Virus record (IMG/VR): IMGVR_UViG_3300027708_001750
Coordinates: 1-32,083 of that record
Source of the DNA: a virus
DNA: 32,083 nt
Reading direction: 5' to 3' (one strand)
The notes beneath the pieces were generated by a model. The model ran no database searches and had not been told where the DNA came from. It was given only the letters and a program-made list of their open reading frames with translations. Shown here one piece after another: positions 2,171-31,111 of this stretch; position 1 is the first letter of the stretch; the number at the start of each line of letters is the position of its first letter. The position numbers were made by a program, and so were the translations under genes.

Positions 2171-3010
2171 ATGAGATCACACTATTGGACATGTAGCAAG
2201 TTTGCCGATTGGGTTCGTGGCACTGCCAAACTCAGTGCTGGCACGAGTGAAGAATGGGACAACTGGACTAATGCGGCTCAAATGAAACACAACTTTCGTT
2301 ATTGGTTGGCCGAAGAAGGAATTGATTATGTTCAAAAATTTGTATATTATATACCGGACAAACTAAATGACATACGCTATTATATTAATAATCGCTGGGT
2401 TTCTCACAGCCATGCTCTTACCGCACATCCTCGAGACATCAAACCGGGTAATTGGAGCGATGTTGGCAATCGCTTTCTTCCTTGCATGTTCAATGAGCTT
2501 GTGGATTTTGTTGAAATAGAACAAGCATGGCATCACTGCATGTGGAGTGATGATGCTAAAACCGAATTCGAAGTGCCTTGGTGGCGTAGTGGGTGGTTAC
2601 GACTACGTACATGGCGCAGTCCAGAAGCTGGCATGGAATATCTCAAGTGGGCCAGCGGACTCGTAGTAGACGAAAACATGGGGTCTAATCCTAGTGAAAA
2701 AGGATACGGTGAGCCAACTTACCAAGCCAAGTCCGCTAAGGAAATTATTGAGCTGTATACCTGGTGGACTGTTACCTATCGCAATCGTCCAGATCCATAT
2801 GAAGCAAGTGGTTGGAGTGCGTATTGTGACGCTATGCGAGTAAAGTATCCAGGCAGTTTCTTTTCTAGTCTAAACAGCAAGGATGCTGAAGATCGTAAAG
2901 CCAGCGACAAGGCACATAAACTGCTTACTAAGATTGAAAAGGCTTACGAAAAGGAAGATGAAGAAATGATGATTCGTCTTATTAAAATTAGACAAAGTCT
3001 TTGGACCTAA
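2171..3010 (+). CDS. Conserved-looking phage protein, unknown function, Trp-rich
   Basis: The 279-residue product is not recognised. It is unusually rich in tryptophan and tyrosine, for example YWTCSKFADWVRGT near the N-terminus, PWWRSGWLRLRTWRS in the middle and ELYTWWTVTYRNRPDP near residue 200. It ends in a charged helix (about residues 240-279). There is no signal peptide, no transmembrane segment and no clear catalytic motif. The ATG follows TAAGGAATTAAA, a usable ribosome site, 9 bases after the MazG-like gene. Its stop overlaps the first radical SAM start as TAATG, implying translational coupling. It might be a partner of the radical SAM block or simply a core phage gene. Confidence 0.75.
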   Translation: MRSHYWTCSKFADWVRGTAKLSAGTSEEWDNWTNAAQMKHNFRYWLAEEGIDYVQKFVYYIPDKLNDIRYYINNRWVSHSHALTAHPRDIKPGNWSDVGNRFLPCMFNELVDFVEIEQAWHHCMWSDDAKTEFEVPWWRSGWLRLRTWRSPEAGMEYLKWASGLVVDENMGSNPSEKGYGEPTYQAKSAKEIIELYTWWTVTYRNRPDPYEASGWSAYCDAMRVKYPGSFFSSLNSKDAEDRKASDKAHKLLTKIEKAYEKEDEEMMIRLIKIRQSLWT

Positions 3011-4422
3011 TGAAGGGCGATGAAGTAACTAACATAAACGGCCGATTCGAATCAAAATACCTAAATGATTCCGAGTCGGTCTTTTCTGCCCTTAATGAAG
3101 TCAGCCCTAGTTTTTGTCTTGCCAAGTGGTATAACGTAAGCATACACATACCCACAGGCCGTACACACAGTTGTTATCATCCTCCCACACATCAGATTCC
3201 TCTAAAGGAAATCGCCATTGATGTGTCAGCACTACACAATACCCGGTATAAAAAGAATCAGCGCAAGCTCATGCTTAAAGGTGAACGTCCGATCGAGTGC
3301 GGATTTTGCTGGCAAATTGAAGATAGTGGCACACAGTTAAGCGACCGTGCCTATCGTAGCAAGGATGTTTACGAACCAGGACTTATAGAGGAAGCACTTA
3401 CTATAGAGAATCCTAATCCACGCTATGTGGAAGTAAACTTCAATCAAGCCTGCAACTTAAAATGTAGTTACTGCTCGCCACACCTAAGTACAGAGTGGAA
3501 CAAAGAGATAGACCGACACGGTGCGTATCAGTTAGCTGATGGCAAAACGCATAACGACACACAATGGATGAAGAACCAAAATATGGTTCCTAACAACAGT
3601 TTAGACAATCCGTACTTGCTGGCATTTTGGGAATGGTTGCCTAGTATATACCCAACGTTACATACGTTTCGTATGACCGGCGGCGAACCTCTAATGGATA
3701 AGAATACGTTTCGTATGTTTGACTATGTTAAGGAGCACCCAAGTGAAAAGCTACATCTAAGTATTACGTCTAACTGTTGTCCGCCCAAAGGGCAATGGGG
3801 CAAGTTTATGACCAGTTTGAAAGAAATTACAGACAAGGATGCTATCAATCACTTTATGTTGTTCTGTAGTTTAGACAGCTGGGGCGCACAAGCAGAGTAT
3901 ATTCGTAACGGGCTTGACTTTTGTACCTTATATACCAATATAACTGACTATTTGAAAAACAGTCGCAAGCATAGCCTTACCTTTATTATCACATTTAACG
4001 CACTGAGCTATACAGGCTTTGTTAAGTACATTGAGAACATACACAAGTTACGTCAAGAACACAATACAGACAGACAACTAGTTTGGTTTGATATTCCCAT
4101 GCTGAATGATCCTATGTGGATGAATCCTAAACTGCTACCAGATATGGTAACTGAGTTAGAACGTGCTATGGCATTTATGAAGACTAATGAAGAAGGCGAA
4201 CATAATCGCTTTAAGGGCTTTAAAGATTTTGAAATTAGTAAAGTACAACGACTAATTGATTGGGTGAAGAATGACAGCAAGTTTGACAGAGCAACAGCAA
4301 TGAAAAACTTTTACTTGTTCTTTAGCCAGCATGACGAACGCAGGGGAACAAGTTTTTTAAATACATTCCCTGAACTAACAAACTTTTGGAACAACTGTGA
4401 ACAAAAAACATTACGAAACTGA
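3010..4422 (+). CDS. Radical SAM protein 1 of 4, with N-terminal cysteine cluster
   Basis: This is a 470-residue radical SAM enzyme. The core motif is CNLKCSYC (Cys148, Cys152, Cys155; CX3CX2C), which ligates the [4Fe-4S] cluster that cleaves SAM; MTGGEPL is the SAM-binding glycine motif. Before the core, Cys36, Cys55, Cys97 and Cys100 (FCLAKW, HSCYHPP, ECGFCW) form a C...C...CxxC set suited to an auxiliary Fe-S cluster, as in 'twitch' or SPASM-type enzymes, although here it is N-terminal. Start chosen at ATG 3010 (TAATG overlap with the previous stop) rather than an in-frame TTG at 3001. It ends 26 bases inside gene 2. The family is clear; substrate and product are unknown. Confidence 0.85.
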   Translation: MKGDEVTNINGRFESKYLNDSESVFSALNEVSPSFCLAKWYNVSIHIPTGRTHSCYHPPTHQIPLKEIAIDVSALHNTRYKKNQRKLMLKGERPIECGFCWQIEDSGTQLSDRAYRSKDVYEPGLIEEALTIENPNPRYVEVNFNQACNLKCSYCSPHLSTEWNKEIDRHGAYQLADGKTHNDTQWMKNQNMVPNNSLDNPYLLAFWEWLPSIYPTLHTFRMTGGEPLMDKNTFRMFDYVKEHPSEKLHLSITSNCCPPKGQWGKFMTSLKEITDKDAINHFMLFCSLDSWGAQAEYIRNGLDFCTLYTNITDYLKNSRKHSLTFIITFNALSYTGFVKYIENIHKLRQEHNTDRQLVWFDIPMLNDPMWMNPKLLPDMVTELERAMAFMKTNEEGEHNRFKGFKDFEISKVQRLIDWVKNDSKFDRATAMKNFYLFFSQHDERRGTSFLNTFPELTNFWNNCEQKTLRN

Positions 4423-5752
4423 TTTAGATTATAAAAAGCGTTTGATAGACCGCATCAGTCCTACGTACTGTGGTGCTAAATGGTACAACGCTACTATCTG
4501 GCTTGGCTCGGGACGTACAACGTCTTGTCATCATCCACCTGCACATAATGTTAGTGTTAAAGAAGTTGTTATCAACTTTAAAGCACTACATAATACAGCA
4601 CAAAAGAAAGACGATAGACGTAAAATGCTAGCTGGTGAAAGACCCGAAGGCTGTGACTACTGCTGGCGTATCGAAGACATGGGTACAGACAAAGTAAGTG
4701 ATCGTGTTTATAAAACTGTAGCATACAATGACGAGTCCAATTTATTGGCCGCGCAAACACCTATAGATCAAGATGTTGATTTGCAAACACTTGAGATAGC
4801 ATTTGACCGCACTTGTCAGTTTGCCTGCTCGTATTGTAATCCGGCATTCAGTACAACCTGGGTTAAAGACATTAAAGTTAAAGGGCCTTACAAGGATCTA
4901 ACTACAGACGGCCGTGGACATTTTACACACATCCACGAACACGACCAACTATATGACTTTCACGAAACTAATCCTTACATTGAAGCGTTCTTTGCTTGGT
5001 GGGATGATAGCCTGCATCGTACACTCAGAGAGTTGCGCATTACAGGTGGTGAGCCACTAATGAGTGGGCATACTTGGAAACTCATTGACTGGTTTAAAGA
5101 AAATAAAAACAAAAGTAAAACAGAACTTGCCATCAACAGCAACTTAGGTTTTGACAGAGAACTGGTAGATAGATTGCTTACATCAACTGAAGGTATTGCG
5201 TTATCTGTATATACTAGCAATGAAAGTATGTTTGGACAAGCAGAATACATTCGTGATGGGTTAAAATGGTCACAATGGTTAAACAATGTTACATATTTGT
5301 TAGAAAGCAAACGGCTTAAAAATTTAAACATCATGTGTACTATTAACGCATTATGTTTGGACAGTTTACCGGAGTTTCTTGATTTGATTGCTGGATTAAA
5401 ACGCAAATATGGTTGGCAAAGTCTTTACATTAGTCTAAACATCATGCGCTTTCCTAGTTTTCAAGGTCCATTAGTACTGCCTGAACACTTACGCCAATAC
5501 TATAAGAACAGACTTATTGAATGGAATGAATCGAATAAGGATGAAAAACTGTTTGGTGAATTTGAACTTAATCATCTTGAACGTTTAATTGATTATCTTG
5601 ACATTGTTAAGACTCCGCACAGCGAAGGCTTTGAGCTTGTTAGTCATCAAAAAGATTTTAAAGGTTTTTACGAACAATATGATGTACGTAGGGGTAAGGA
5701 TTTCCGCAAGACATTCAGCCCAATTATGTTGGAGTGGTATGAATCCATTTAG
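4397..5752 (+). CDS. Radical SAM protein 2 of 4, paralogue
   Basis: A 451-residue paralogue of its neighbours. The N-terminal set is Cys25 (TYCGAKW), Cys44 (SCHHPP), Cys86 and Cys89 (GCDYCW). The radical SAM core is CQFACSYC (Cys140, Cys144, Cys147), followed by LRITGGEPLMS. The GTG start at 4397 has GGA at 4388-4390 and lies inside the end of gene 1; no in-frame ATG occurs until after the first CxxC region, so GTG is the only start that keeps the whole N-terminal domain. The last residues, EWYESI, overlap the ribosome site and start of gene 3. Shared wording with gene 1 (SCHHPP, ALHNT, GERP, CW.IED) shows tandem duplication followed by strong divergence. Confidence 0.85.
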   Translation: MNKKHYETDLDYKKRLIDRISPTYCGAKWYNATIWLGSGRTTSCHHPPAHNVSVKEVVINFKALHNTAQKKDDRRKMLAGERPEGCDYCWRIEDMGTDKVSDRVYKTVAYNDESNLLAAQTPIDQDVDLQTLEIAFDRTCQFACSYCNPAFSTTWVKDIKVKGPYKDLTTDGRGHFTHIHEHDQLYDFHETNPYIEAFFAWWDDSLHRTLRELRITGGEPLMSGHTWKLIDWFKENKNKSKTELAINSNLGFDRELVDRLLTSTEGIALSVYTSNESMFGQAEYIRDGLKWSQWLNNVTYLLESKRLKNLNIMCTINALCLDSLPEFLDLIAGLKRKYGWQSLYISLNIMRFPSFQGPLVLPEHLRQYYKNRLIEWNESNKDEKLFGEFELNHLERLIDYLDIVKTPHSEGFELVSHQKDFKGFYEQYDVRRGKDFRKTFSPIMLEWYESI

Positions 5753-7025
5753 ACAATTTACTTCTGAAGGCAAACAAGATGCTATAAGTCCTACCTATTG
5801 TGCGGCTAAATGGTTTGAAGGAACTATTTGGCTACATAAGGGCATGACTGCCAGTTGTCATCATACTCCACTGGATAGTATTGATTTGGATATTAATTTT
5901 CCTAGTTCGTTATTTAATACCACAAACAAAATAATAGACAGAGCAGGAATGTTAAGTGGGGTCAAAGTAGAAGGTTGTAATTATTGCTGGAATATTGAAG
6001 ACAAGGGTGGAATAAGCGATAGACGAATTAAATCTAAGTCGTTATTAAATAGTGTCCAATGGTACAAAAAGACTGATTTATTTCCTACACCAGTACAATT
6101 AGAAGTAGCGTTTGATCGTACTTGTAATTTAGCATGTGCATATTGCGGGCCGGCATTTAGTAGTAAATGGGCCAATGATATTAAACAAAACGGACCTTAT
6201 ACCAATTTAATTACAGACAGTAAGTATACCAACCCGGACAAAGTCATAGACGAAGATAATAATCCTTATGTTACAGCATTTTTTAACTGGTTACCAACCT
6301 TGTCAAAAACATTGAAAGTATTAAGGATCACCGGTGGAGAACCATTGATGAGTCCTAACTTTTGGAAATTTATTGATTATATTAACGAACACGGATTTGA
6401 TGGTGAACTACATATCAACACAAACCTTGTTAATCATAAAGGAGAAGTAAGTAGATTAATTGAAAAAACAAAAGATTTTAAGATTAGAATACATACCAGT
6501 TTGGAAAGTAGTTTAGATCAAGCAGAATATGTTCGATCAGGGTTTGATAAAAATGCCTGGCTTACTAGTGTTAATACTATCATGTTGCAAACCAATTGGA
6601 TCGTAAATGTTGCTACGGCTGTTAGTAGTTTTACTGTTTGGAATTATATTGATTATCTTGATCTTATGTTAATATATAAGCAAACACACGGAGATGATCG
6701 TGTAAGAGTTACTTGTAATTTTGTGAACTATCCGGTATTCATGCGCACCGATTTAATACCAAAAAATAAAAGAGAACCATTAGCTTTAGAAGTTAATGAA
6801 TGGTTAATCAAAAATAAAAAACATTTGAATAAAAATGAAATAGAACAAGTTGATCGATTTGTAACGGTTGTTGCCAGCAGTGAAAAAGCAACCAATGACA
6901 TCTATACTAAATTAGAAGATGCATTACAAGATTTAAAGACATTTGTTCCGCAGTACGATCAACGTCGTGACCAAAGTTATAAATGTTTAGACAATCGTTT
7001 TGTGGAGTGGTATGAGTCAATCTAA
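5739..7025 (+). CDS. Radical SAM protein 3 of 4, paralogue
   Basis: A 428-residue radical SAM paralogue. Auxiliary cysteines are Cys21 (TYCAAKW), Cys40 (SCHHTP), Cys80 and Cys83 (GCNYCW); the core is CNLACAYC (Cys129, Cys133, Cys136) with LRITGGEPLMS. The frame stays open upstream into gene 2, but the first sensible start is ATG 5739, with GGAG at 5731-5734; the GGAG and ATG are built from the codons for EWYES at the end of gene 2 (14-base overlap). The gene is more AT-rich than its neighbours. It ends with EWYESI like gene 2, and the same junction is reused to start gene 4. Substrate unknown. Confidence 0.85.
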   Translation: MNPFRQFTSEGKQDAISPTYCAAKWFEGTIWLHKGMTASCHHTPLDSIDLDINFPSSLFNTTNKIIDRAGMLSGVKVEGCNYCWNIEDKGGISDRRIKSKSLLNSVQWYKKTDLFPTPVQLEVAFDRTCNLACAYCGPAFSSKWANDIKQNGPYTNLITDSKYTNPDKVIDEDNNPYVTAFFNWLPTLSKTLKVLRITGGEPLMSPNFWKFIDYINEHGFDGELHINTNLVNHKGEVSRLIEKTKDFKIRIHTSLESSLDQAEYVRSGFDKNAWLTSVNTIMLQTNWIVNVATAVSSFTVWNYIDYLDLMLIYKQTHGDDRVRVTCNFVNYPVFMRTDLIPKNKREPLALEVNEWLIKNKKHLNKNEIEQVDRFVTVVASSEKATNDIYTKLEDALQDLKTFVPQYDQRRDQSYKCLDNRFVEWYESI

Positions 7026-8190
7026 TTGGTACTGTAAATTGCCATGGACTGGGTTCAGCAATGATCCAGACGGCAAGGTACGACCATGCTGTGTATACAA
7101 AGGTTACATTGTAGACGAACTAGGTAAGGAAATGTATGTACAGACTCACTCTGTTAAGGAAATCTTCAGCAGTAAGTATATGAAAGAATTACGTGAGGAG
7201 TTTAGAAGCGGAGGCAAACCTGCGGGCTGTTCTACTTGCATGGTAAATGAAGCCAATGGCTACACCAGCAAACGTAACATATACAGTGGTGCTATGGACT
7301 ATTCCAGCGAACCCGATGTGCCTGTTGAATATCAAATGATCTTGAGTAATGCCTGTAACCTAAAGTGCCGCAGTTGTAGTCCTAGCCACAGTAGCTTGTG
7401 GCAAGCAGAGCATAAAGTACTTTGGGGACACACTGGATTTAAAATGCCTCATGGACAAAGTGGAGAAAACGACAGCGTATTGTGGAGCAAGCGTGGCGAA
7501 TGGATGTCTAGTTTGCAACGACTGGAGATTGTTGGTGGCGAACCGTTTTATATCAAGCGGTGGCGCATCTTGTGGGAAGAACTGATCAGTCAAGGCTTGA
7601 GCAAACACATACAAATGGACATGAGCAGTAATGCTACCTTGTTTGAAGGCACAGTTGTTGAGAATCTCATTGCCAACTTCAAAGGTATTGGACTAGGACT
7701 CAGCGTGGATGGTATGGGCAAGGTGTTTAATTACTTGCGCCATCCTGGTATATGGGAAGAAGTTCGAGAGAACATGCTCAAGTATCATGAGATTAAACAG
7801 CGTAGTCCAGCAAGTTTTATCGTTAGCGTGAGCCACACCATAGGTTGGGTTAATGCGTGGGAACTTCCGGAATTCCATACCTTTATTAAAACTGAAACAC
7901 CCCAGTTTGTTATCTGGAACAACATCATACACAGTCCTGAACACATGGCCATATGGTGTATACCTGCTGGACTAAAGCAACGTATACAGGCCAAGTGGCG
8001 TGCCTATGACTGGGGCAAGTATAAAGATGACATCGAAGGTATAATTACCTACATGAACAGTCGTCAACCTACAGATGATGAATTGCGTAAACACTATACA
8101 ATATTTGCCACACATGATAAACTACGTGATGAAAACTTGCTGGCAATATTGCCAGCAGATATAGTAGAAGAGATCATACCCTATGCCTAA
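7012..8190 (+). CDS. Radical SAM protein 4 of 4, N-to-twitch type
   Basis: A 392-residue radical SAM protein closer to the common bacterial and phage form with a 'C.LPW...G..RPCC' opening. N-terminal cysteines are Cys8 (YCKLPW), Cys26-27 (RPCC), Cys73 and Cys76 (GCSTC); the core is CNLKCRSC (Cys115, Cys119, Cys122) followed by LEIVGGEPFY. The spacing of the four auxiliary cysteines matches proteins 1-3, so all share one architecture, but the sequence is the most divergent and it lacks the SCHH motif. ATG 7012 with GGAG 7004-7007 is chosen over an upstream TTG at 7000. It overlaps the next gene by 8 bases. It may act on a different substrate or step from proteins 1-3. Confidence 0.87.
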   Translation: MSQSNWYCKLPWTGFSNDPDGKVRPCCVYKGYIVDELGKEMYVQTHSVKEIFSSKYMKELREEFRSGGKPAGCSTCMVNEANGYTSKRNIYSGAMDYSSEPDVPVEYQMILSNACNLKCRSCSPSHSSLWQAEHKVLWGHTGFKMPHGQSGENDSVLWSKRGEWMSSLQRLEIVGGEPFYIKRWRILWEELISQGLSKHIQMDMSSNATLFEGTVVENLIANFKGIGLGLSVDGMGKVFNYLRHPGIWEEVRENMLKYHEIKQRSPASFIVSVSHTIGWVNAWELPEFHTFIKTETPQFVIWNNIIHSPEHMAIWCIPAGLKQRIQAKWRAYDWGKYKDDIEGIITYMNSRQPTDDELRKHYTIFATHDKLRDENLLAILPADIVEEIIPYA

Positions 8191-8707
8191 GATATGGATA
8201 TTCGGTGATAGTTTTGCGGCCAGCCAAAATAAACATGCCTGGACGCGATTATTAAATTGTCAAGTTATCAATCGGGCAAGCAATGGTAGTAGCGAATATA
8301 GAATCTGGAAGTCGTATCAAAAAGCAAAAAAAGATATCGACCCGAGCGATAAAATAATTTTTTGCCATACAAGTTACAGCCGTGTTTATTTAAAAAATAC
8401 AATTACTGATTTGATGAGTAGATGGTTGTCTTCACATCGATTCTGCGATATAATCATATCCGATATACAGCACAAACAAGAAATTAAATTTATCAAGATA
8501 CTTGACAGCATTTGGGATGATGTGTATTTCTACGACAACTATAACTTACTAGTAGAAGATTTAAAACGTGTACCTAACAGCATACATATAAATTTCTTTG
8601 AAAACGGTGTATACAGATCTGCATATCTATCGCATCTTGGCGATATAAATCATATGACTAAAGAAGGCAACTTAGTAATAGGTATGCATGTAGGGACACT
8701 TATATGA
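8183..8707 (+). CDS. SGNH-hydrolase-like protein 1
   Basis: A 174-residue protein with features of the SGNH/GDSL hydrolase fold. Block I is IFGDSFAAS with Ser10 as candidate nucleophile. NRASNGSSEYR (about 30-40) fits the oxyanion-loop block. The C-terminal LGDINHMTKEGN supplies Asp154 and His157 in a D-x-x-H arrangement. Family members deacylate lipids, acetylated sugars or peptidoglycan-linked glycans. There is no signal peptide, so it should act in the cytoplasm or be packaged. It overlaps radical SAM gene 4 by 8 bases and the next gene by ATGA. It is short for the family, and the central GxND block is not obvious, so activity is uncertain while the fold is likely. Confidence 0.65.
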   Translation: MPKIWIFGDSFAASQNKHAWTRLLNCQVINRASNGSSEYRIWKSYQKAKKDIDPSDKIIFCHTSYSRVYLKNTITDLMSRWLSSHRFCDIIISDIQHKQEIKFIKILDSIWDDVYFYDNYNLLVEDLKRVPNSIHINFFENGVYRSAYLSHLGDINHMTKEGNLVIGMHVGTLI

Positions 8708-9414
8708 GAATAATATCGTTTGGTAGTAGCCACACCGTTGGATACGGATTAAGCGATGTGGCTAACAGTCATTATCGTACTGTTAGTAAGTTTGCCTATC
8801 CTAATATTGTAGCACAGCATTTTGATTGTCCTTGTATAAACTATGCTAAGTGTTCAAATTCATTAGAACAAATGCATTTGGATATACTAAGTTATTTTGC
8901 TGAAAGCAGAGACGATGATATTATCATCGTGCAAATATCCACTAACCCTAGTTGGACTACATTAATAAATCCAGATAATGACATTGTATTTGTAACGAAT
9001 CCTGATTCGTTAGACAACAAAGGCTCGGCATACAAAAAAAGTTTGCATGGATTATATGGAATATTGACAGGTGCAAATCATTGGAATAGAATTTGGTATT
9101 TGCATTTTTACAGCATTATAAGTTTGTTACATTACAGCAACAAAAAATTCGTTTGGTTCTTTGATAGATATCCAAATGAGTATTTTAAATTCGATGAAAC
9201 TATTTTGAGCATGCCTGCCGCAATTGCCAAACAGATTATTAATATCCGAAACAGTTGTCCGGATCCAAGTGCTACTCAAATTAAAGAAATATATGCAGAC
9301 TATTTGGTTAACCACTGTCCAGAATGGATGTTTGAAGACGGGCATTTTAATGAAAGTGCCCACATGGCATGGGCTAATCATATATTGATTCCAGAGATTA
9401 AAAAACGCTTATGA
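8704..9414 (+). CDS. SGNH-hydrolase-like protein 2
   Basis: A 236-residue protein resembling SGNH hydrolases. Block I is ISFGSSHTVGYG, with GSS in place of GDS and Ser8 or Ser9 as candidate nucleophile. NYAKCSNS (about 46-53) and VQISTNPSW (about 75-83) resemble blocks II and III. DGHFNESAHMAW near the end supplies Asp212, His214 and His220. It may remove or transfer acyl groups on a sugar or lipid. It follows SGNH protein 1 with an ATGA overlap and is followed by the glycosyltransferase-like gene with another ATGA overlap, implying coupled translation. Two different SGNH proteins in a row suggest two steps rather than a recent duplication. No signal peptide is seen. Confidence 0.65.
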   Translation: MRIISFGSSHTVGYGLSDVANSHYRTVSKFAYPNIVAQHFDCPCINYAKCSNSLEQMHLDILSYFAESRDDDIIIVQISTNPSWTTLINPDNDIVFVTNPDSLDNKGSAYKKSLHGLYGILTGANHWNRIWYLHFYSIISLLHYSNKKFVWFFDRYPNEYFKFDETILSMPAAIAKQIINIRNSCPDPSATQIKEIYADYLVNHCPEWMFEDGHFNESAHMAWANHILIPEIKKRL

Positions 9415-10223
9415 ATAAAAAAATTACATTATTTTTCTGTACTTATTATGCGGATTTTGATTTATTAAAAAGAGCTATTGACAGCATCTACGATGCTTGG
9501 GACCATAGCACTATCGAAGAGATAGTTGTAATACTAAACGATCAGCTTGATACTATGGAAGAATTGACTAACATTCTTGATGGATTTAGCAAATCTATAA
9601 GCATACGTCTAGTACATGCATCAACATTAAATCCGATTGAACAATACGATTGGCATAGTCAGCAAGCACTTAAACTTCTTGTTTCGGAAATCATTACCAC
9701 AGACTGGTATATTATATACGATTGCAAGGATTTTTATTTGGTGCATCCTAAAGAAAAAATTACTCCTAAACTATTTTTTAATACGGATGGCAAAGCAATA
9801 GATGTTTTACGAATTGGGCCGCAAACCGGCGATAAAGGTCATTACTTTATTGATCAATATCAACGAGCTTATAATATTTGGGGATTAAAGTTTGATCCTG
9901 CTGGGAGACATTGTAAAGTTACTACACCGTTTATATGTAATACTGCCGTTATACGAGATTTAATAGCAGAATTAAAAATAAAATTTCCATTTTTATATGA
10001 ATTGTTATTTTTGATCGAGATTAATCGCCAACAATATATTACTGAATTTACAATTATTAGTGCATATTTGGAGTACAAAGGTCTGTTTGATAAATTGTAC
10101 GTATCCTTTGAGCAAGAATCCAAAATGCATACTGAGCTATACCAAAGAAGATTTCAAAATAAATTTTTGAGAAGAGAAAATTGGCATAAATCAATCGAAG
10201 AAGGCGATGCTTCCTACGGTTGA
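9411..10223 (+). CDS. Glycosyltransferase-like protein
   Basis: A 270-residue protein that looks like a GT-A-fold glycosyltransferase. It opens with ITLFFCTYYADFDLLKRAID, a beta strand, loop and helix as in nucleotide-sugar-binding folds. YIIYDCKDFYL (about residues 101-111) sits where a DxD-type metal motif is expected, here as DCKD. TTPFICNTAVIRDLI and TEFTIISAYLEY further on recall acceptor-side segments of DUF6492-like transferases. It starts with an ATGA overlap with SGNH protein 2 and ends in the -35 box of the next promoter, so it is the last gene of the operon. Sugar donor and acceptor are unknown. The alternative is a non-catalytic nucleotide-sugar-fold protein. Confidence 0.55.
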   Translation: MNKKITLFFCTYYADFDLLKRAIDSIYDAWDHSTIEEIVVILNDQLDTMEELTNILDGFSKSISIRLVHASTLNPIEQYDWHSQQALKLLVSEIITTDWYIIYDCKDFYLVHPKEKITPKLFFNTDGKAIDVLRIGPQTGDKGHYFIDQYQRAYNIWGLKFDPAGRHCKVTTPFICNTAVIRDLIAELKIKFPFLYELLFLIEINRQQYITEFTIISAYLEYKGLFDKLYVSFEQESKMHTELYQRRFQNKFLRRENWHKSIEEGDASYG

Positions 10224-10278: not shown

Positions 10279-11484
10279 ATGGCTACTAAAGCACCAGCAA
10301 AAAAGTCACGCATTACTAAGAAACAAGTAACTGCACATCGTACCCGTGCAGTTAAAGACCACAGCCCAGTTTGGGAAGGATGCGAAACTTGGGATGCCGA
10401 CACATTCCACCGTCATTTCAAACGTTCGATGGACTACTACCGTTTGGAAAGCGACATCAAATCTTATAAGCCGGCTGTTGTTAAATGGATGGAAACTGTT
10501 GGTTGTACCAAAGCAGACATTACAGCGTTCAAAAAAGTTAAAGACTCGCGAGTTGGTACTACAATGGGTGCCGTAGCGTGTTGTTTGAATCGTGGAATGA
10601 CTCCACAACGTGCTGATTTTAATAACGGTCGTGACACTGCTGGTTGGTTGCGAGCTGAGATTGTCAAAGTTATTGCGGCCGGTAAGGACGACATCGACGA
10701 AGTTGAGGCTAAAGCACTTGAAGCCGCAAAGCCAGCAGTATATACACCTAGTATCCAAGAACGTGTACGTGATGCGGCTTATCGCATGACTGAAGAAATT
10801 GAAAATGCTATTGAAAGTTTCCAAGCTGATGCTGAAAACTTTGATCCAAAAGCATTTAAGATGCTTAATATGCTCAAAGCAGTAGAAGCAAAAGCCGCCC
10901 ATGCTCGTATTATCAAAGAGTTTTACAGTAAGGACTTGGCAGAGCTTGAGGAACTTGCTAGCGGTAATGCTGACGAGCAATTGAAAGAAGGTTACAGTCA
11001 TCGTAGCCGTAAGCAAATTAAGAACTTGATTGCGTTCTATCAAGAAATTATGGCGGCTTGTACTATGTTGGCACAGGAAGCTAAGGTTAATCGTGCGCCA
11101 CGTGCTAAGAAGGCAGTTCCAGCAGAGAAGATTGTGGGTAAGATGAAGTATAAAAAGACTGACGAGCCATTAAAGCTGGTTAGTATTAACCCTGCCGATA
11201 TCATTGGGTGCGGTGAACTGTGGATCTTTAACACTAAGACACGTAAACTAGGCAAGTATGTTGCTAAAGAATTTAACACATTAGGTGTAAAAGGCACTAC
11301 AATTACTAACTTTGACGAGTTTAAGAGTATTCAAAAGACTATTCGCAAGCCCGAGGAAAAACTCAAAGAGTTTAAAGCCGCAGGCAAGGTGCAGTTGCGT
11401 AAGTTCTTAGACGATATTAACGCTACAGATACTAAGATGAACGGTCGTATTAACGAAGATACTGTCCTACTCAAAGTAGCATAA
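10279..11484 (+). CDS. Unknown abundant Lys-rich protein, monocistronic
   Basis: The 401-residue product is not recognised. It begins with a basic tail (APAKKSRITKK) and is rich in Lys, Ala and Glu throughout. A helical, probably coiled, middle spans about residues 160-270, including KAVEAKAAHARIIKEF and DLAELEELASG. A basic linker (RAPRAKKAVPAEKIVGKMKY, about 271-290) leads to a more beta-like C-terminal part. No catalytic motif, signal peptide or membrane segment is seen. It has its own consensus promoter, a strong ribosome site and its own terminator, which suggests a highly expressed nucleic-acid-binding or scaffold-like protein; this is inference from charge and expression signals. A long minus-strand frame across the gene is a coding shadow. 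Confidence 0.85.
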   Translation: MATKAPAKKSRITKKQVTAHRTRAVKDHSPVWEGCETWDADTFHRHFKRSMDYYRLESDIKSYKPAVVKWMETVGCTKADITAFKKVKDSRVGTTMGAVACCLNRGMTPQRADFNNGRDTAGWLRAEIVKVIAAGKDDIDEVEAKALEAAKPAVYTPSIQERVRDAAYRMTEEIENAIESFQADAENFDPKAFKMLNMLKAVEAKAAHARIIKEFYSKDLAELEELASGNADEQLKEGYSHRSRKQIKNLIAFYQEIMAACTMLAQEAKVNRAPRAKKAVPAEKIVGKMKYKKTDEPLKLVSINPADIIGCGELWIFNTKTRKLGKYVAKEFNTLGVKGTTITNFDEFKSIQKTIRKPEEKLKEFKAAGKVQLRKFLDDINATDTKMNGRINEDTVLLKVA

Positions 11485-11567: not shown

Positions 11568-13067
11568 ATGAGCCAACTATTCACCATATTAGACGATAAA
11601 ATTGTTATTAACAAGGCCCTGCTACGTTATGTAGAAGGTCCTACTTCCCTTACTGGATCGCTAGAAATTATAGGCGGGGCGAGTGTAAATGATAACTTGA
11701 TTGTGAGAGGCAAGATCATTGCCGATGTTATCGAAGTTAATCAGATTATTAACAAGGGACTTGGCGGAGGTAGCGGAGACACTACTAATTTTAGAGCCGA
11801 AACTGAAGAGTCATTGAACGGACAGGGTGTTACTTGGAACGTAGGTGATACTGAAAGCACTCTTGTATACCGTCCAGGCAATAGATTATACACCAACTTG
11901 CATTTGGATTTGGAGCGTGGTCGTGCTTATAAAATTGACAATATCGAAGTACTGACTGGCAACACATTGGGTAGCAGTATTAGCCGTTCAAGTTTACGTC
12001 AATTGGGACCATTGAACAATTTGATTGTAAACGGTAACGTTGAAATTGGACAGTTTGTTTACATTGATAGCGACACAGGCCGAGTTGGATTTGGTACAGA
12101 AAGTCCTAACGGATCATTTAGCATTGTTGATAACGGTACAGAATTTGTTATGGGCAGTCCGGTAACTGGTACATTTAACATTGGTACTTATACTAATCAC
12201 GACGTTGCCATTACTACGGACAATATTGCCCGTGTTACGGTTAAAACAGGTGGCGATGTACACGTTGGAAATATCACAAGCCGTGGTGCCAAGTTGGTAG
12301 TACACGGTACTATTCAAGCTGAAAACATTGTTACCGAAACAAAGATCGAACGTACTGACAGTGTTAAATTTCTAGCCACCGATGGCAGTGTATTTGGTAT
12401 TGGTTTACAATGGGTTGGTTCAGGCAGTCCTAAACAACTTATTTTACGTGCCGATCCAGATAGAATTTGGGCCAGTGAACATATTGAATTAGCGGCCAAC
12501 CGTAATTTGATGATTAATAATCAAGTAGTGTTAAACTCAACTACGTTGGGCGCAGGTATTACCGAATCTAGTTTGACATCATTAGGTGATCTATCATCGA
12601 TCACAGTAACAGGTAACACATCATTGTTAGGTAGTACTTCTGCTCAGTCAATTCATGCAAATGAAATTAACTTTGGGGAAGGTAGTCAACTAGTCAAAGT
12701 TAATGATAGAGGATTAAGTACTAGCCTAAGTTTCAACTTAACTGTTGGCGAACAAAATATTATCTATGCCGACAGCGGCAGTGTTACTATTGGCTCTTCG
12801 GAAAATACTCGTAGACAAATACGGGCATTTGGAACATTGAGTGTTAATGTAAACAATCCAGATCCAGAATTACAGTTTGCAGTGGCTGGTAATATTGGGT
12901 TCGCTGGTAGAAAATTTATTACTGGTACGGGTGCGCCTGAACAAGGTAATTACAATGTTGGCGACATTTGCTGGAATACTACTCCGCAAATTGGAGGACA
13001 TGTTGGTTGGATTTGCTGTAGTGCAGGCACACCAGGCATGTGGTTTAAGTTTGGCATGATCGGTTAA
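11568..13067 (+). CDS. Virion fibre-like structural protein
   Basis: The 499-residue protein is rich in Gly, Ser, Thr, Asn and Val, with repeated short beta strands typical of trimeric phage fibres: SLTGSLEIIGGASVNDNLIV near the start, LNNLIVNGNVEIGQFVYID, SSITVTGNTSLLGSTSAQ and GSVTIGSSENTRRQ. Recurrent 'S.L..LG.L..L.V.GN..' units (about 142-156 and 335-352) suggest a repeated beta-helical segment. GRVGFGTESPNGSFSI resembles a common phage-fibre element. The C-terminal stretch GNYNVGDICWNTTPQIGGHVGW looks like a tip domain. It is the only gene between a late promoter and the queD promoter. Its place in the particle (fibre, baseplate or neck) cannot be decided here. Confidence 0.8.
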   Translation: MSQLFTILDDKIVINKALLRYVEGPTSLTGSLEIIGGASVNDNLIVRGKIIADVIEVNQIINKGLGGGSGDTTNFRAETEESLNGQGVTWNVGDTESTLVYRPGNRLYTNLHLDLERGRAYKIDNIEVLTGNTLGSSISRSSLRQLGPLNNLIVNGNVEIGQFVYIDSDTGRVGFGTESPNGSFSIVDNGTEFVMGSPVTGTFNIGTYTNHDVAITTDNIARVTVKTGGDVHVGNITSRGAKLVVHGTIQAENIVTETKIERTDSVKFLATDGSVFGIGLQWVGSGSPKQLILRADPDRIWASEHIELAANRNLMINNQVVLNSTTLGAGITESSLTSLGDLSSITVTGNTSLLGSTSAQSIHANEINFGEGSQLVKVNDRGLSTSLSFNLTVGEQNIIYADSGSVTIGSSENTRRQIRAFGTLSVNVNNPDPELQFAVAGNIGFAGRKFITGTGAPEQGNYNVGDICWNTTPQIGGHVGWICCSAGTPGMWFKFGMIG

Positions 13068-13177: not shown

Positions 13178-13663
13178 ATGGCAAAATTTTACTCAACAAA
13201 AACTTACGGAAACGACAGAGGTTTATCCTGCTGTTTTAGACAATGGCGTGCCACACACAGCCATTGCTCAACATTGCATGGTTACTCAATTGGTATCAAA
13301 CTGATCTTTGAATGCGACACATTAGATGACAAAAACTGGTGTATGGACTTTGGAGGTCTTAAAGAATTCAAAGCATGGGCAGATCACATGTTTGATCACA
13401 CTTTAGTTATTGCTCAAGACGATCCTCATTTAGAAATATTCAAACAGCTAAATGAAATCAAAGGCGGATTCGAAGATAGTGGCTTATGTGATCTACGTAT
13501 TGTACCAGGTGTAGGCTGTGAAATGTTTGCCAAAATGGCTTATGATCAAATGGCTGAACTATTGGCTAGTGGCGATATGCGTTATCCAATCAATCCCACA
13601 GTGAGAATCAAATCGGTTGAAGTATTTGAACACGGTGCTAATTCGGCTACATACGAAGGCTAA
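13178..13663 (+). CDS. queD: QueD-like 6-carboxytetrahydropterin/6-pyruvoyl-tetrahydropterin synthase
   Basis: A 161-residue member of the QueD/PTPS family; QueD makes 6-carboxytetrahydropterin for preQ0, queuosine and other 7-deazaguanines. Visible motifs are CCFRQWRATHSHCSTLHGYS (candidate metal ligands His27/His29 and His34, catalytic Cys30), NWCMDFGGLK, MFDHTL (Asp73, His74) and VEVFEHGANSATYE with late glutamates. Where the classical enzyme has HGH, this one has HGY (Tyr36), so one usual zinc ligand is replaced, which puts it in a divergent subfamily. AAGGAGA (13166-13172) precedes the ATG. It has its own promoter and structured leader. No other deazaguanine gene (folE, queE, queC, dpdA) is visible here. 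Confidence 0.82.
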   Translation: MAKFYSTKTYGNDRGLSCCFRQWRATHSHCSTLHGYSIGIKLIFECDTLDDKNWCMDFGGLKEFKAWADHMFDHTLVIAQDDPHLEIFKQLNEIKGGFEDSGLCDLRIVPGVGCEMFAKMAYDQMAELLASGDMRYPINPTVRIKSVEVFEHGANSATYEG

Positions 13664-13709: not shown

Positions 13710-14576
13710 ATGATTAAAAAATACATTTGTTTCTTTAAAAAAAATGACGAAGTTAAAACTTTAACTTTTTCTATTAATCAAAATACATTAACAGAAGTAT
13801 GGAGTTCTACTATTGAAACAGCATTGTCTAGAGGACAAAATAGTTTAGTAGGGCTCCAGAATTTGTTTAGACCCGAAGCTACTACTGAAACAATTACAGA
13901 ACCGATCTCTAATATTGTTAAGATTTTAGAAAAGTATAATCCAATATTTGTTAATTCTTGGCCACCGAAATCTGATATTATATCAGGATTAAACAATTTA
14001 CATTATAAATTTCAATTAACACAAGAATCAAATATATCACCATTATCTTTTTCTAAAGAATATAATGATAATCTTAACTTGTTAAATGCAAAAATACACG
14101 AAGCAGAACATGTATTAAGTGATGGGAAAAATTATGCTGTTTGGTTCATTAACCAATCATCAAACTATGGTATAGAAATAACAGATGATTTACGAAAATA
14201 TTGGGGTGTAAAATTTATAAAATACAATCCGGCAAGGACACTGTATTTAGGCTATCATACAATAGGAAAAGATTTAATTACTTGCTTTATTGATAATGAT
14301 ACGGAAGTGATAAGAACTGAAAGTCTTAGACAGCAACTATACATTTCTACAGAAACTTTGTTTCGACTTAACCCTATGATAACTACCAATCAAAATTTAG
14401 CTATAAAAAGATGGTTAACTCGAAATAACTTAAATTCTTTTGTGGATTTGCAAGACCCTAAATATAAATATAATCAGCAACTTCCAGTATTGGGAAGGCT
14501 TACAGACAACTTATCTAATAATCAAATACTAGAAATTTGGAAAAATTGGACTTTTTTCAAAGTTGATGCAGAATAA
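13710..14576 (+). CDS. AT-rich orphan gene, unknown function
   Basis: The 288-residue product is not recognised. By eye the gene is about 25-33% GC, well below its neighbours, with codons ending mostly in A or T and many Asn, Ile, Lys and Leu residues. The N-terminus (IKKYICFFKKNDEVKTLTFS) looks like beta strands; NYAVWFINQSSNYGIEITDD and YWGVKFIKYNPARTLYLGYH in the middle suggest an alpha/beta domain; and the C-terminus is helical. No signal peptide, membrane helix or catalytic motif is evident. The ATG has no clear ribosome site. Composition suggests a relatively recent arrival from a different gene pool. The real start could be slightly different. Confidence 0.65.
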   Translation: MIKKYICFFKKNDEVKTLTFSINQNTLTEVWSSTIETALSRGQNSLVGLQNLFRPEATTETITEPISNIVKILEKYNPIFVNSWPPKSDIISGLNNLHYKFQLTQESNISPLSFSKEYNDNLNLLNAKIHEAEHVLSDGKNYAVWFINQSSNYGIEITDDLRKYWGVKFIKYNPARTLYLGYHTIGKDLITCFIDNDTEVIRTESLRQQLYISTETLFRLNPMITTNQNLAIKRWLTRNNLNSFVDLQDPKYKYNQQLPVLGRLTDNLSNNQILEIWKNWTFFKVDAE

Positions 14577-14744
14577 AATAAATTAGTTACGTAAACTTTG
14601 GCGTATTTGGGCCAAGGCTTTAGGAGAAAAATCAGGCAGTTCGGACGAGAAATCGGACCGAATTGCTTGCATTAGAACGCTAGTTGTGTTAATATACATT
14701 ATCACAAACTTTTTTATAATCGCAGGCGTCATAAGGCATTGGTA
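14577..14744. other. Intergenic gap before uvsE
   Basis: This 168-base stretch has no plus-strand gene. It contains TATAAT at 14715-14720, 24 bases before the uvsE start, with only a poor -35 candidate, so promoter use is uncertain. On the minus strand it holds a short open frame at 14583-14699 (separate entry). Confidence 0.4.
14583..14699 (-). CDS. Possible 38-residue minus-strand ORF
   Basis: A minus-strand frame from ATG at 14699 encodes 38 residues ending SPKALAQIRQSLRN, an amphipathic helix-like, gene-like tail. The frame is also open upstream into the start of uvsE, giving longer but less likely versions (for example from an ATG shortly upstream reading MTPAIIKKF). No clear ribosome site precedes it. 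It fills an otherwise empty gap, which slightly favours a real gene, but it could be chance. Confidence 0.25.
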   Translation of the reverse strand: MYINTTSVLMQAIRSDFSSELPDFSPKALAQIRQSLRN

Positions 14745-15773
14745 ATGGGAAAAATAGGCTTCGCATGTAAATGGATCGATCATGCAGATCAAGTAAACGG
14801 CATCAAAAAAGATGACGATGCTAAACAATACAACACTGGTACAACTACCATAAGTTGGTTAAATAGACAGTCAAAGGATATAGCAGAGCAAAAGCTCTGG
14901 GATCTAATGGTCCAAAATCTTGCGGCTACACAAAAACTCGTAGACCGTGTTGGAGAACTCAATGAAAATCTTAGGATGGTTCGCCTTAGTAGCGATATTC
15001 TCCCTGCTTATACCGAGCCTACTTGGAGTTATTTTTGGCGTAAGCCTGACGTTGTCAGCTATTTGGATCGCAATTTTAGCCTTATTGGTCATAGTGCTCG
15101 TGCAAGCGGTACCCGTGTTAGTATGCATCCTGGGCAGTTTGTTGTGCTGGCTAGCATTAACGAAGGTATCGTCGGACGATCAATAGATGAATTCGAATAC
15201 CACACCGACATGGCCCGCTACATGGGTTATGGAAAAACCTTCCAAGACTTCAAGATCAATGTACACATATCGGGCAAGCAAGGCCCTGAAGGCATACGCA
15301 GAGCATACGGACGTCTTACACCAGAGGCCCGTAATTGCCTTACTATCGAAAATGAAGAAAATTCTTGGGGTCTAGATGACTGTTTATCTATTAGCGATAT
15401 CGTTCCTATTGTGCTTGACGTACACCACCATTGGATTCGCGAAGGGGAGTATATCCTTCCGACAGACGATCGTGTTAGGCGTGTCGTTGATAGTTGGCGT
15501 GGTCTGCGCCCTACTATGCATTACTCAGTTAGTCGTGAAGATTACCTTGTGGAGCATGACAAACTTGTCGCACCTGTTCATGCCCAACTCCTTCTAGACG
15601 GATATAAGAAACAAAAACTAAGGGCACACAGTGACTTTTATTGGAATCAAAAAACAAACGAATGGGCAATAACTTTTCTAAACCAGTTCGACATAATGTG
15701 CGAAAGCAAGGGCAAAAACCTCGCCAGCCTGGAACTGTACAATCAAGCCAAAAGCTATCTCGAGAACAACTGA
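14745..15773 (+). CDS. uvsE: UV damage endonuclease, UvsE/UVDE family
   Basis: A 342-residue TIM-barrel enzyme that nicks DNA 5' of UV photoproducts and other lesions. The strand-end motifs of the family are present in order: IGFACKWID, VRLSSDILPAY, VSMHPGQFVVL, INVHISGKQG, LTIENEENSWGLDDC, IVLDVHHHWI, MHYSVSREDY and RAHSDFYWN; their His, Glu and Asp residues form the metal site. The start is set at ATG 14745, with AAGG at 14733-14736, rather than an in-frame TTG at 14739. Length and motifs match active phage and bacterial enzymes. UvsE is a common repair gene in aquatic T4-like phages. Its last 112 bases overlap the next small gene. Confidence 0.92.
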   Translation: MGKIGFACKWIDHADQVNGIKKDDDAKQYNTGTTTISWLNRQSKDIAEQKLWDLMVQNLAATQKLVDRVGELNENLRMVRLSSDILPAYTEPTWSYFWRKPDVVSYLDRNFSLIGHSARASGTRVSMHPGQFVVLASINEGIVGRSIDEFEYHTDMARYMGYGKTFQDFKINVHISGKQGPEGIRRAYGRLTPEARNCLTIENEENSWGLDDCLSISDIVPIVLDVHHHWIREGEYILPTDDRVRRVVDSWRGLRPTMHYSVSREDYLVEHDKLVAPVHAQLLLDGYKKQKLRAHSDFYWNQKTNEWAITFLNQFDIMCESKGKNLASLELYNQAKSYLENN

Positions 15774-16466: not shown

Positions 16467-16499
16467 ATACTATTTACATTAAGGTTATAAAATTGCTTT

Positions 16500-16507
16500 G
16501 ATAAATA
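16500..16507 (+). promoter_or_regulatory. Possible variant late promoter before erpA
   Basis: GATAAATA at 16500-16507 differs from the T4 late consensus by its first base and lies 17 bases before the ATG at 16525, nearly the spacing seen at the two exact late sites. If real it would drive erpA, the giant fibre gene and the genes beyond as one late transcript. Confidence 0.4.
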
Positions 16508-16524
16508 TCATATCGAGGGCAAAT

Positions 16525-16848
16525 ATGATTACTATATCAGCGTCAGCAAAGACAAAAATCAAAGATCTTCTTTACGAAGAAGGCAATCCTAACTTATCAT
16601 TACGTACTTTTGTACAAGGCGGAGGATGTAGCGGATTTAGTTATGGTTTTACATTTGACGAAATAGCAAATGATGACGATTTTGAAATCCCGTTAGATGA
16701 ATTTAAGGTGCTTGTGGATGCAATGAGTATGCAGTATCTTACAGGTGCAGAAATAGATTATAAAGAAGAACTAATGGGTTCATCTTTCACAATTAAAAAC
16801 CCAAATGCAAGTACTACTTGCGGTTGCGGTTCTAGCTTCGGAGTTTAA
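16525..16848 (+). CDS. erpA: A-type iron-sulfur carrier, ErpA-like
   Basis: A 107-residue A-type carrier that delivers Fe-S clusters to apo-enzymes. The three cluster cysteines are present: Cys35 in [16 protein letters not shown], and Cys99 and Cys101 in [10 protein letters not shown]. The segments [20 protein letters not shown] and IKNPNA closely resemble bacterial ErpA rather than IscA or SufA. Start chosen at ATG 16525 with GAGG at 16515-16518 instead of a TTG at 16498. A host-derived auxiliary metabolic gene is likely; HesB-like genes occur in other aquatic T4-like phages. In this phage it could load the four radical SAM proteins at 3010-8190, although it sits beside the late fibre genes. 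It ends six bases before the giant fibre gene. Confidence 0.9.
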
Positions 16849-16853
16849 TAAAC

Positions 16854-19800
16854 ATGTCACGTCAAGAAATAGATATTGGTATACAAGGTAATGATGGAAC
16901 AGGCGATAGTATTCGTGACTCGTTCCGTAAAGTAAACGAAAACTTTACTGAAATTTATGCTGTTTTTGGAGCTGGTGGAACCATTAATTTTACTGCATTG
17001 GGTGATACTCCGGATTCATATACAAATAATCAAATATTCATTACCAATGATGCCGGTACTGCAATTTTAGCTAAAACCTTAGTTGGAGTGGGCGGTGTAA
17101 CTATTGACCAAACTTCAACTCCTGGAACTATAAAATTAATAGGATCGCAGAGTAATTTATATGCTGACGGTGCTCCACGATTGGGCGGCCCGCTAAACGT
17201 TAATAATTTAGCTATTGGTAATATTCCAGATCCTAGCGATTCGTTAGTGGCCAGTTTCAATTCAACTTATGCTAGCCTTGGAATCTCAACAACTATTGGA
17301 AAACTTGCAATTAGTAAAGGATATGCTGACAGTCATTATGTTGGTAAAGGCGATGGCAATCAAGTAATTGGTGCGTTAAATATTCGAAGTGAACCGCTTA
17401 GTCCTGAAATTGCTGATCCAAATTATGATCCAACATTAACAGGTAATTACTTAGCTACAGAAGCATTACCGCGTAAATCCGCTGTATATCGTGGTGGAGA
17501 TACAATGTTAGGTAAACTAACACTAAGTGATCATCCATCACCCGTAGCAGGATTTGGAACTCCAAACAGTGCAGACGATAAACAAGCCGCTACTAAATTC
17601 TATGTTGATAACGAAGTATTTGTTAGTTCGACTAACTTGTATGTTCGCACCGACGGTGATGATACCCAATTAAAAACACCTCCTGGACGTGAAGGTCGTA
17701 ACTGGGCTCACGCTTATAAAACTATTAGTGCGGCCGCATTACAAGCTGAAACTTTACAAGGTTTAGCAAACTTAGAGCCAGGCCCATATCGTCAAAAAAT
17801 CAGTTATACTATTAGTCCTAACACATATACTTCAACAGTGCAAAGTGTTGGATTGACTGGCGGCAACAGCGCAGTACAAGGATATGTTGATGCGGCCGCT
17901 TTATTAACTGCAAACAAAGCATTTATCCAAGCAGAAACTATTGCTTATATCAATAACAAATACGTTAACGTATTCACATATGACCAAGTAAAATGTCAAA
18001 GAGACGTTGGCTTAATTTTATCAGCCATTGGTACCGACCTTGTAGTTGGCACTAATTTTAACAGTGTCCAGGCCGCTACTTCATATTTTGAAAAACAAAG
18101 TTCAACAGTATTATCTAGTCAATTAATTCAAACCATTGATGCTATCAACTATGCACGAGATCAAGTATTAGCATTTGCATATGATTCAACTTCTCTTACT
18201 ACGTATCTTAATACTGTAATTGATGCATTAAACTATGATATGGTGTTGAATTCCAACTATCAAAGCCTTACTGCGGCCAGATATTTTCCATATGCTGGAA
18301 CTGGATTAAGTATAACAGAAATTGTTGGGGCACTGGGTCAATTAAAACTTGAACTAGCCAACTTAGCTAAGATCAATGCATTAACTGTAGACCTTGCTGT
18401 AACTAGATATAACAATAATATTAACAGTATGATCACAGTTGTTCAAGGAGGACTTGAACCAACAGTATCTATGGTCGAAACTAGTGCATCAAGTACAGCC
18501 AAGAAAAGTGCTAGAACATTATTATTAAACAATATTCCGTTTGTAAAAGCTGAAATAGTTGCGTGGCTAGCCGCTAATTATCCTAAATTAGCATATAGCC
18601 AAACAACTTGTAAGAGAGATATACAGTATATCATCGAAGCTATAGCGTACGATCAGTTATATGAAGGTAACAGCCGTACTATCTATGCAGGACAACGTTA
18701 CTGGTCTAATGCAACACGTCAAATTGCCTACAGTGAATTGGCCGCTACTAAAGGTGCTTACATTTATTTAAAAACACTTTTACAATCGGTAATTAGCAAT
18801 ACTAGTCCTGCACAAGTTTATCAAAATTCAGTTATACAGTATCAAAATCAAACCTACACAGGTGGTAGTTCTCAAGCCAATACTATTAAAAATTTAGTAT
18901 CTTTAATTTCTGGAACCACACTTGCCATTACAGCTACTAGTTCTTCAACAGGTATTACAACAACCAACAGTTCCGATCTAACACTTGGCATGGTTGTAAC
19001 GATAGACAATACAACTCCTATTACTGTAACTGGTTTTAGCAGTAAAACTGGTTCAGGCCCGTATCTAGTTACACTAGTAATTCCAACACAAACTAGTATA
19101 CCTGTAACAAATTCATCATTTACAGTAGCTGGAAATAGTAACACTAGTTATAATGGTACTGTTACTGTTAACTCAGCTACATCAACTACCGTTGTATTAA
19201 ATTACTCGATTGATCCTGGAGTGTATGGCGGTGGTATAACAACCATTACTCCATACTTTGGTGGATTGACTGCTGGCGGAACATACTATATTGTAGAGAT
19301 TGCAGACAGTACACATTTCAAATTAAGTTCAAGTCAGGGTGGCAATGCGGCATCGTTAACTAACACACAACTTACAACAAATGTTTCTTGGGCTGGATTA
19401 TTAACTATCAATAGTCCTCCAACTAATACTCCTCCAACATACAATGCAGGCGCGGCTCCGCTTCCTACAGTTTATGGTAATGTTGGTAGTGCCAAGGCCA
19501 CTGCAATTACAAACATAATTACATTTGTTAATAATACATATCCGTATATTAGCAATTCTCCTGCCATTACACAAATTAATAATTTATTCAAAGTAATGAC
19601 AGACATATTGGCAGGTAGTTTGGCTAACAGAACTGTTGTAACTATAACTAAACCTGCATCTACTAGTAGTACTAATCATAGTGCGGCACAATTATTGTTA
19701 CTTAATAGCACATTTATTGCGGCTGAAGTGATTGGGTGGATTAAACAAAACTACGCATCTCTTACCTATGTAGATGCTGACGGTCGAGATCAATGGGAAA

Positions 19801-30734: not shown

Positions 30735-31111
30735 TGACACAACAAACTATCAACACTGGTACGGCGGCCAACAGCAAAAACGGAGACCCGTTGCGTACAG
30801 CGTTTACTAAAGTAAATGCAAACTTTACTGAACTGTATGGTAACTACGCAACGCAGTTAATTACTACATCAGTATACACTGCTACTACTGCTGATCGTTA
30901 TCTTGGAGTTAACTATGCCGGGCCTGTGACTATTATGTTACCTAGCACAACTGACGGGTCACTATTAACAATCAAAGACGAAAGCGGATTATGTTCTCTT
31001 AATCCTATCTCACTCATAGGTACTATAGATAATAGTACTGGCGGTGTAATTTTAACAATTAACAACGGAGCTTTAACCCTGATTTACAGATCAGGATGGA
31101 GAATAATCTAA
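30734..31111 (+). CDS. Small fibre-associated protein with the docking module
   Basis: A 125-residue protein. Its first 40 residues (NTGTAANSKNGDPLRTAF, KVNANFTELYGNY) repeat the N-terminal motif of the giant fibre. The remainder is beta-rich: RYLGVNYAGPVTIMLPST, LLTIKDESG and ILTINNGALTLIYRSGW, resembling the C-terminal strand-rich tip of small phage structural proteins. The ATG overlaps the giant gene's stop as TAATG and has GGGAGAG just upstream, so translation is coupled. It probably attaches to the same virion site as the giant fibre, as a short fibre, cap or adaptor. Confidence 0.78.
   Translation: MTQQTINTGTAANSKNGDPLRTAFTKVNANFTELYGNYATQLITTSVYTATTADRYLGVNYAGPVTIMLPSTTDGSLLTIKDESGLCSLNPISLIGTIDNSTGGVILTINNGALTLIYRSGWRII

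Follow-up and report, generated by a model that had tools for sequence, protein, structure and literature searches.

Modules rich in radical S-adenosylmethionine (SAM) genes have already been reported in T4-like phages (PMC2853527, PMC5332604, PMC7029224). The Campylobacter phages CP220 and CPt10 each have five radical SAM genes and an amidinotransferase, which were termed an interchangeable module (PMC2853527); the T4-like TARA_ERS488813_N000010 has 12 radical SAM genes and an A-type iron-sulfur (Fe-S) carrier (Nishimura et al., PMC5332604); and the host-recognition clusters of pelagimyophages differ by radical SAM cassettes, the tail-side hypervariable region of these phages also containing glycosyltransferases (GTs), for which modification of the host surface was proposed, while the radical SAM genes were left unexplained (PMC7029224). 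Here we analyze four consecutive radical SAM genes of the virus record IMGVR_UViG_3300027708_001750. The whole record of 32,083 bases is called the window, and our coordinates refer to it.

This locus resembles the CP220/CPt10 module in that several radical SAM genes of a T4-like phage lie in a region exchanged between close relatives: the window encodes T4 gp9/10 domains, and its radical SAM block is exchangeable between constant flanks, the upstream family f26 and the downstream pair f39/f40. Like CP220 and CPt10, a related phage (G002) has an amidinotransferase in its radical-SAM-rich region, whereas the window genes include none. Many radical SAM genes together with an A-type carrier, which is ErpA in the window, are a likeness to TARA_ERS488813_N000010 as far as its published description goes, and a tail-side variable region with radical SAM cassettes is shared with the pelagimyophages; host inference via ErpA was dropped because its identity of 37-46% to the genomes tried was uninformative. 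The four genes belong to the NCBIfam family NF033640 (N_Twi_rSAM, twitch domain-containing radical SAM protein; curated cut-off 170 bits), on the function of which we found no paper in the literature searched. The radical SAM enzymes of CP220 and CPt10 were rejected as members of the same family, their best NF033640 score being 35 bits. What is new here is a variant of the radical-SAM-rich modules of T4-like phages, which lack an explained function. We favor the reading of this variant as a swappable cassette for glycan tailoring, located in the tail/baseplate (host-recognition) region of a T4-like phage, and we assign to it a probability of just under one half.

An earlier reading of this DNA, made from the letters alone (the sequence-only reading), had placed four consecutive plus-strand genes at 3010-8190, and these coordinates proved exact:

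3010-4422, plus strand: radical SAM gene 1, ATG start, 470 amino acids, NF033640 score 306 bits; constant member of the cassette
4397-5752, plus strand: radical SAM gene 2, GTG start, 451 amino acids, NF033640 score 282 bits
5739-7025, plus strand: radical SAM gene 3, ATG start, 428 amino acids, NF033640 score 244 bits; guanine-cytosine (GC) content 33%
7012-8190, plus strand: radical SAM gene 4, ATG start, 392 amino acids, NF033640 score 268 bits; LPW...PCC type with a SPASM-like N-terminal domain

The starts ATG 3010 (gene 1), ATG 5739 (gene 3) and ATG 7012 (gene 4) are those favored by the sequence and the relatives, the mechanical list of open reading frames having these genes start at 3001, 5589 and 7000, respectively. 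Successive genes overlap by 26, 14 and 14 nucleotides. All four far exceed the NF033640 cut-off, with near full-length coverage. The gathering score of Pfam PF04055 was passed by gene 3 only, gene 2 falling just short, while the Pfam SPASM domain was found in gene 4 (30.9 bits, cut-off 21.5, residues 12-80) and had no match in genes 1-3; gene 4 is of the LPW...PCC type, as previously claimed, and is alone of the four above the SPASM cut-off.

Alignments contain in each of the four proteins the N-terminal cysteine set, the CX3CX2C core and the GGEP motif that the sequence-only reading had described. The motifs SFC/TYC..KW, SC.H.P and C..CW.IED, which it had ascribed to genes 1-3, are likewise seen in their sequences (SFCLAKW, SCYHPP and CGFCWQIED in gene 1; TYCGAKW, SCHHPP and CDYCWRIED in gene 2; TYCAAKW, SCHHTP and CNYCWNIED in gene 3), and these three genes form a distinct subgroup of NF033640 with this signature. 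Among the full-length relatives in related viral loci, GGEP was found in 280/282 and the N-terminal CxxC in 281/282; loss of the core cysteines, which had been named beforehand as an argument against four active enzymes, occurred in none, CX3CX2C being present in 282/282. The four N-terminal cysteines are invariant in the alignments of both types, that of genes 1-3 and that of gene 4. As the motif set is conserved in nearly all 282 relatives, its origin by chance is excluded. A C-terminal D..R motif (residues 429-432 of gene 2) is also invariant in the alignments of all four proteins; it has the form YD.RR in most sequences of the genes 1-3 type and D..R in the gene 4 type.

Genes 1, 3 and 4 are only 23-38% identical to gene 2. 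In a tree of 116 representatives, where the joins among the long gene 4-type branches are unsure according to the program's own warning, genes 1, 2 and 3 of the window fall within a single clade of 56 rows (support 99), yet belong to separate orthologous groups, the gene 3 clade comprising six rows (support 100), and gene 4 is found in a distant group. The pairwise ratio of non-synonymous to synonymous substitution rates (dN/dS) was about 0.03 for gene 1, about 0.12 for gene 2 and 0.2-0.3 for gene 3, which evolves fastest of the four; for gene 4, dS was saturated in comparisons with the window, and dN/dS was about 0.03 between two related loci, L017 and L020. Judging from these comparisons, the four copies are old paralogues in separate orthologous groups under purifying selection, which makes redundancy unlikely. 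The phage gene 1 group and gene 2 group adjoin different Bdellovibrionota groups in the tree; since each has its own chromosomal relatives, the split between gene 1 and gene 2 predates the split between phage and cell. The proposal of distinct roles rather than redundancy is thus supported by the separate groups, the purifying selection and this split older than that of phage and bacterium.

Contigs encoding the gene 1-3 type in cellular genomes belong mostly to Bdellovibrionota. Genomes positive with the family model numbered 35 of 114 in Bdellovibrionota, 3 of 299 in Pseudomonadota and 2 of 198 in Bacteroidota, each sample including its seed genome. Six contigs with tail and GT genes (L097, L099, L100, L107, L132 and L133), which look like phage contigs in mis-binned genomes, were excluded from the cellular counts; the first five are T4-like phage in appearance and were binned as Pelagibacter, Rickettsiales, Verrucomicrobia, Betaproteobacteria and Neomarinimicrobiota. 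The close chromosomal counterparts are concentrated in Bdellovibrio-type predatory bacteria. A contig of Bacteriovoracaceae UBA6144 carries a gene 46% identical to gene 1 and then a gene 51% identical to gene 2, which is the order seen in the phage, and has four gene 4-like genes close by; from its annotation by sequence, this pair can be read as adjoining obgE and its ribosomal-protein neighbors. On a Bdellovibrionia chromosome, an island (L173/L174, G008:C1:738000-777000) contains about 14 radical SAM genes of the N-terminal-twitch type within 30 kb and, additionally, Asp/Asn hydroxylases, a StrB1-like amidinotransferase and an aminotransferase-like gene. The most concentrated neighbor of the Bdellovibrionota genes is family g2 (about 320 amino acids; L101:11373-12335 and similar), with 17 members within 2.5 kb, none beyond 5 kb, and no match in Pfam, NCBIfam or PHROG.

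In viruses, relatives of gene 1 were found in 77 loci of public contigs, nearly all of them 61-96% identical. The four-gene observation is confirmed and is broader than the sequence-only reading saw, arrays of 2-7 family genes (seven being the maximum) being common in related viral contigs: at least three family genes were present at 40 of 59 non-redundant phage loci counted, many of which are truncated contigs. There were 18 matches to NF033640 in a 281-kb phage contig and 11 in a 302-kb contig, not all over the cut-off. Among cultured phages, Vibrio phage K566 has six matches (two over the cut-off) and KVP40 has weaker ones (114-131 bits). Direct TBLASTN against cultured phages gave no match for gene 2 and, for gene 4, only Vibrio phages K566/K567 (22%).

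The upstream flank f26 was found in ten loci, the window counted among them. Where there is enough sequence, gene 1 is next or nearly next to it, and several of these loci end in the downstream pair f39/f40. Between the flanks, L016-L020 and the window contain genes 2-4 (unless the contig end cuts them) and two SGNH genes; in L036, L041 and L090 the second gene differs, and it is accompanied by other LPW-type genes and by f7, a further radical SAM protein. Because the f26 loci keep gene 1 and vary in content up to f39/f40, gene 1 is constant and the remainder is exchanged. Between the window and L016, which belong to one phage lineage, genes 1-4 are 96%, 76%, 53% and 69% identical, respectively; in the pair L017/L020, genes 2 and 4 (90% identical) are closer than gene 1 (83%), which indicates mosaic exchange. 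On this comparison of loci, the four genes sit in a swappable cassette between constant flanks, beside tail genes.

The successive genes from 2171 to 10223 (f26, genes 1-4, two SGNH-like genes and the DUF6492 gene) overlap by 1-26 nucleotides, which suggests one co-translated operon. The features around the four genes are:

2171-3010, plus strand: conserved protein of 279 amino acids, upstream flank family f26; stop codon overlapping the gene 1 start; same position, directly before gene 1, in 10 loci; without a Pfam, NCBIfam or confident PHROG match
8183-8707, plus strand: SGNH-like protein, assigned by motif (GDSFA, and a conserved INH close to the C-terminus), with no match above cut-off in the libraries; overlaps gene 4
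8704-9414, plus strand: SGNH/GDSL-like protein (weak GDSL match, E 0.12; GH.NE.GH..WA motif in the alignment)
9411-10223, plus strand: DUF6492 protein (PF20102, 30.7 bits, cut-off 22.9), putative GT-A-like glycosyltransferase
10279-11484, plus strand: phrog_11903 protein, constant downstream flank
11568-13067, plus strand: tail-fiber-like virion protein, constant downstream flank
13178-13663: QueD-like 6-pyruvoyl-tetrahydropterin synthase
13710-14576: gene of 288 amino acids, GC content 28%, far under that of its neighbors; no family match
14739-15773: UvdE UV-endonuclease
16498-16848, plus strand: ErpA/A-type Fe-S carrier (NF010147 ErpA, 159.8 bits, cut-off 117; PF01521)
16854-30734: single reading frame of 4626 amino acids with a T4 gp9/10 N-terminal domain at its start
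30734-31111: small gene with a T4 gp9/10 N-terminal domain at its start, as in the preceding protein

As a tail-fiber-like protein and T4 gp9/10 domains are present, the window is the tail/baseplate region of a T4-like phage, in which the protein of 4626 amino acids is predicted to be a giant baseplate or tail-fiber protein. ErpA may be the supplier of clusters for the four radical SAM enzymes. The putative GT activity of the DUF6492 protein is deduced from its sequence pattern; a viral scan with this protein found no relative, and profile searches with the two SGNH-like proteins led to no relative of solved structure.

Confident AF2 models of gene 2 (pLDDT 89.0, pTM 0.86) and gene 4 (pLDDT 85.5, pTM 0.84) were compared with known folds. 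Viral predicted structures have the same architecture (TM 0.6-0.76), while searches of the PDB gave only partial matches, with TM at most 0.41 over the query among the solved structures listed, so that no reaction can be read from the structure and the N-terminal-twitch architecture appears to lack a solved structure. The radical SAM core is shared with SkfB, CteB, anSME, SuiB, BlsE and MoaA, several of which also have an auxiliary cysteine domain; unlike in the solved SPASM/twitch enzymes, this domain is N-terminal here.

The glycan reading is favored because the neighbors in phage and cell are mainly glycan enzymes. Family f2, whose profile matches GT8 glycogenin (4e-6), is near the array in 42 of the 59 phage loci, and carbamoyltransferase and GDSL/SGNH-like proteins recur in related phage loci. 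The neighbors of the chromosomal relatives include GT4, GT2, ABC-2 exporters, carbamoyltransferase and DegT aminotransferase. Phage contig G002 (281 kb; L178-L180) encodes a StrB1-like amidinotransferase (1.1e-94); this enzyme and that of the Bdellovibrionia island are closest to the streptomycin-pathway enzyme, and both regions carry Asp/Asn-hydroxylase-like and aminotransferase-like genes that resemble each other. Also counted for a glycan-tailoring cassette are the family and its motifs, the gene order in an overlapping operon without space for a separate precursor gene, the old orthologous groups, purifying selection, cassette exchange, the tail/baseplate flanks and the nearby ErpA. The multi-step modification pathway of the sequence-only reading holds in part: its distinct roles stand, and a modification pathway seems plausible from the overlapping operon with SGNH-like and DUF6492 proteins and from the glycosyl-, carbamoyl- and amidinotransferases in related loci; sequential steps on one substrate are hypothetical.

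In this reading the cassette supplies four radical SAM enzymes without redundancy, together with two SGNH-like proteins, either hydrolases or acyltransferases, and one putative glycosyltransferase. Each radical SAM enzyme would bind S-adenosylmethionine at the CX3CX2C cluster and abstract a hydrogen atom from a saccharide (a sugar nucleotide or a glycan), the N-terminal auxiliary cluster possibly serving as electron acceptor or substrate anchor, and the products would be epimerized, oxidized or deoxygenated sugars. The constant gene 1 enzyme would act on a common substrate, the swapped genes would lead to a different final structure in each phage lineage, and the product would decorate the host surface or the virion.

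Several points speak against this proposal. No substrate is known for the enzymes, and the glycan-enzyme calls in the window are weak, DUF6492 being of unknown function and the SGNH proteins having no match above cut-off. Around the Bdellovibrionota genes, GTs are no more frequent within 2.5 kb than at 5-7.5 kb (GT4, 3.9% vs 3.9%), so that GT proximity there is not strong evidence; the families that the same distance test did find enriched close to these genes are PqqD, DegT, family g2 and a second radical SAM family, with no clear enrichment for GT or ABC-2 genes. In addition, PqqD-like proteins lie within 2.5 kb of five chromosomal relatives, and the fold and profile matches of gene 4 include peptide maturases such as SkfB (profile match 4.8e-11).

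The last two points would fit enzymes that modify peptides or proteins, introducing changes of side chain or backbone (epimerizations, cross-links or thioethers) into a virion protein (for example, the tail fiber) or a host protein in the manner of SPASM/twitch peptide maturases; this is the chief rival explanation, which we nevertheless consider doubtful. The SPASM-like domain of gene 4 and the PDB fold matches to CteB, SkfB, anSME and SuiB are in line with it, but the low fold similarity takes in the sugar and nucleoside enzymes BlsE, DesII and viperin too, library scans (Pfam, NCBIfam, PHROG) of the window proteins gave no PqqD-like match, and the neighbors of the relatives are mostly glycan enzymes. 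The overlapping genes leave no free gap for the gene of a precursor peptide, so that such a precursor within the operon was rejected; a structural protein could still be the substrate.

We regard it as very unlikely that the enzymes form, together with the QueD-like protein, a nucleoside or DNA hypermodification pathway protecting the phage genome: a QueE-like gene does occur in some related contigs, but the QueD-like gene at 13178-13663 is outside the overlapping operon, the flanks of the swapped cassette are without modification genes, and NF033640 is not a QueE model, QueE-type scores being weak. Just as little credence is given to auxiliary metabolic genes helping the host at low oxygen, which was offered for Campylobacter phages (PMC2853527), since, to judge only by collection name, most of the related contigs are of lake or marine origin, the cassette that holds the enzymes lies on the tail side, is exchanged rapidly and has no metabolic context, and the NF033640 family has no known host pathway. 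Redundant duplicates kept for dosage, or decaying copies, as the tandem arrangement might suggest, are hardly credible and were rejected on the cysteines and catalytic motifs kept in all copies, their low identity, the separate old orthologous groups and purifying selection.

An extension of the glycan-tailoring reading, which we think unlikely, is that the phage cassettes and the Bdellovibrionota chromosomal islands both house a single undescribed biosynthetic system, in which batteries of N-terminal-twitch enzymes with amidino-, carbamoyl-, amino- and glycosyltransferases would build aminocyclitol-like surface glycans, the phages carrying swappable subsets and redecorating virions or hosts.

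In conclusion, T4-like phages have been known since 2010 to carry modules rich in radical SAM genes, for which no function had been given. One type of module is now tied to a single family, NF033640, with old, separate copies that keep the catalytic motifs; it combines a constant gene with exchangeable genes between fixed flanks, and the same gene pair is found on a Bdellovibrionota chromosome. This replaces a vague auxiliary-gene label with testable questions: which step is carried out by the constant enzyme, and whether surface-sugar chemistry is something that phages exchange in cassette form.

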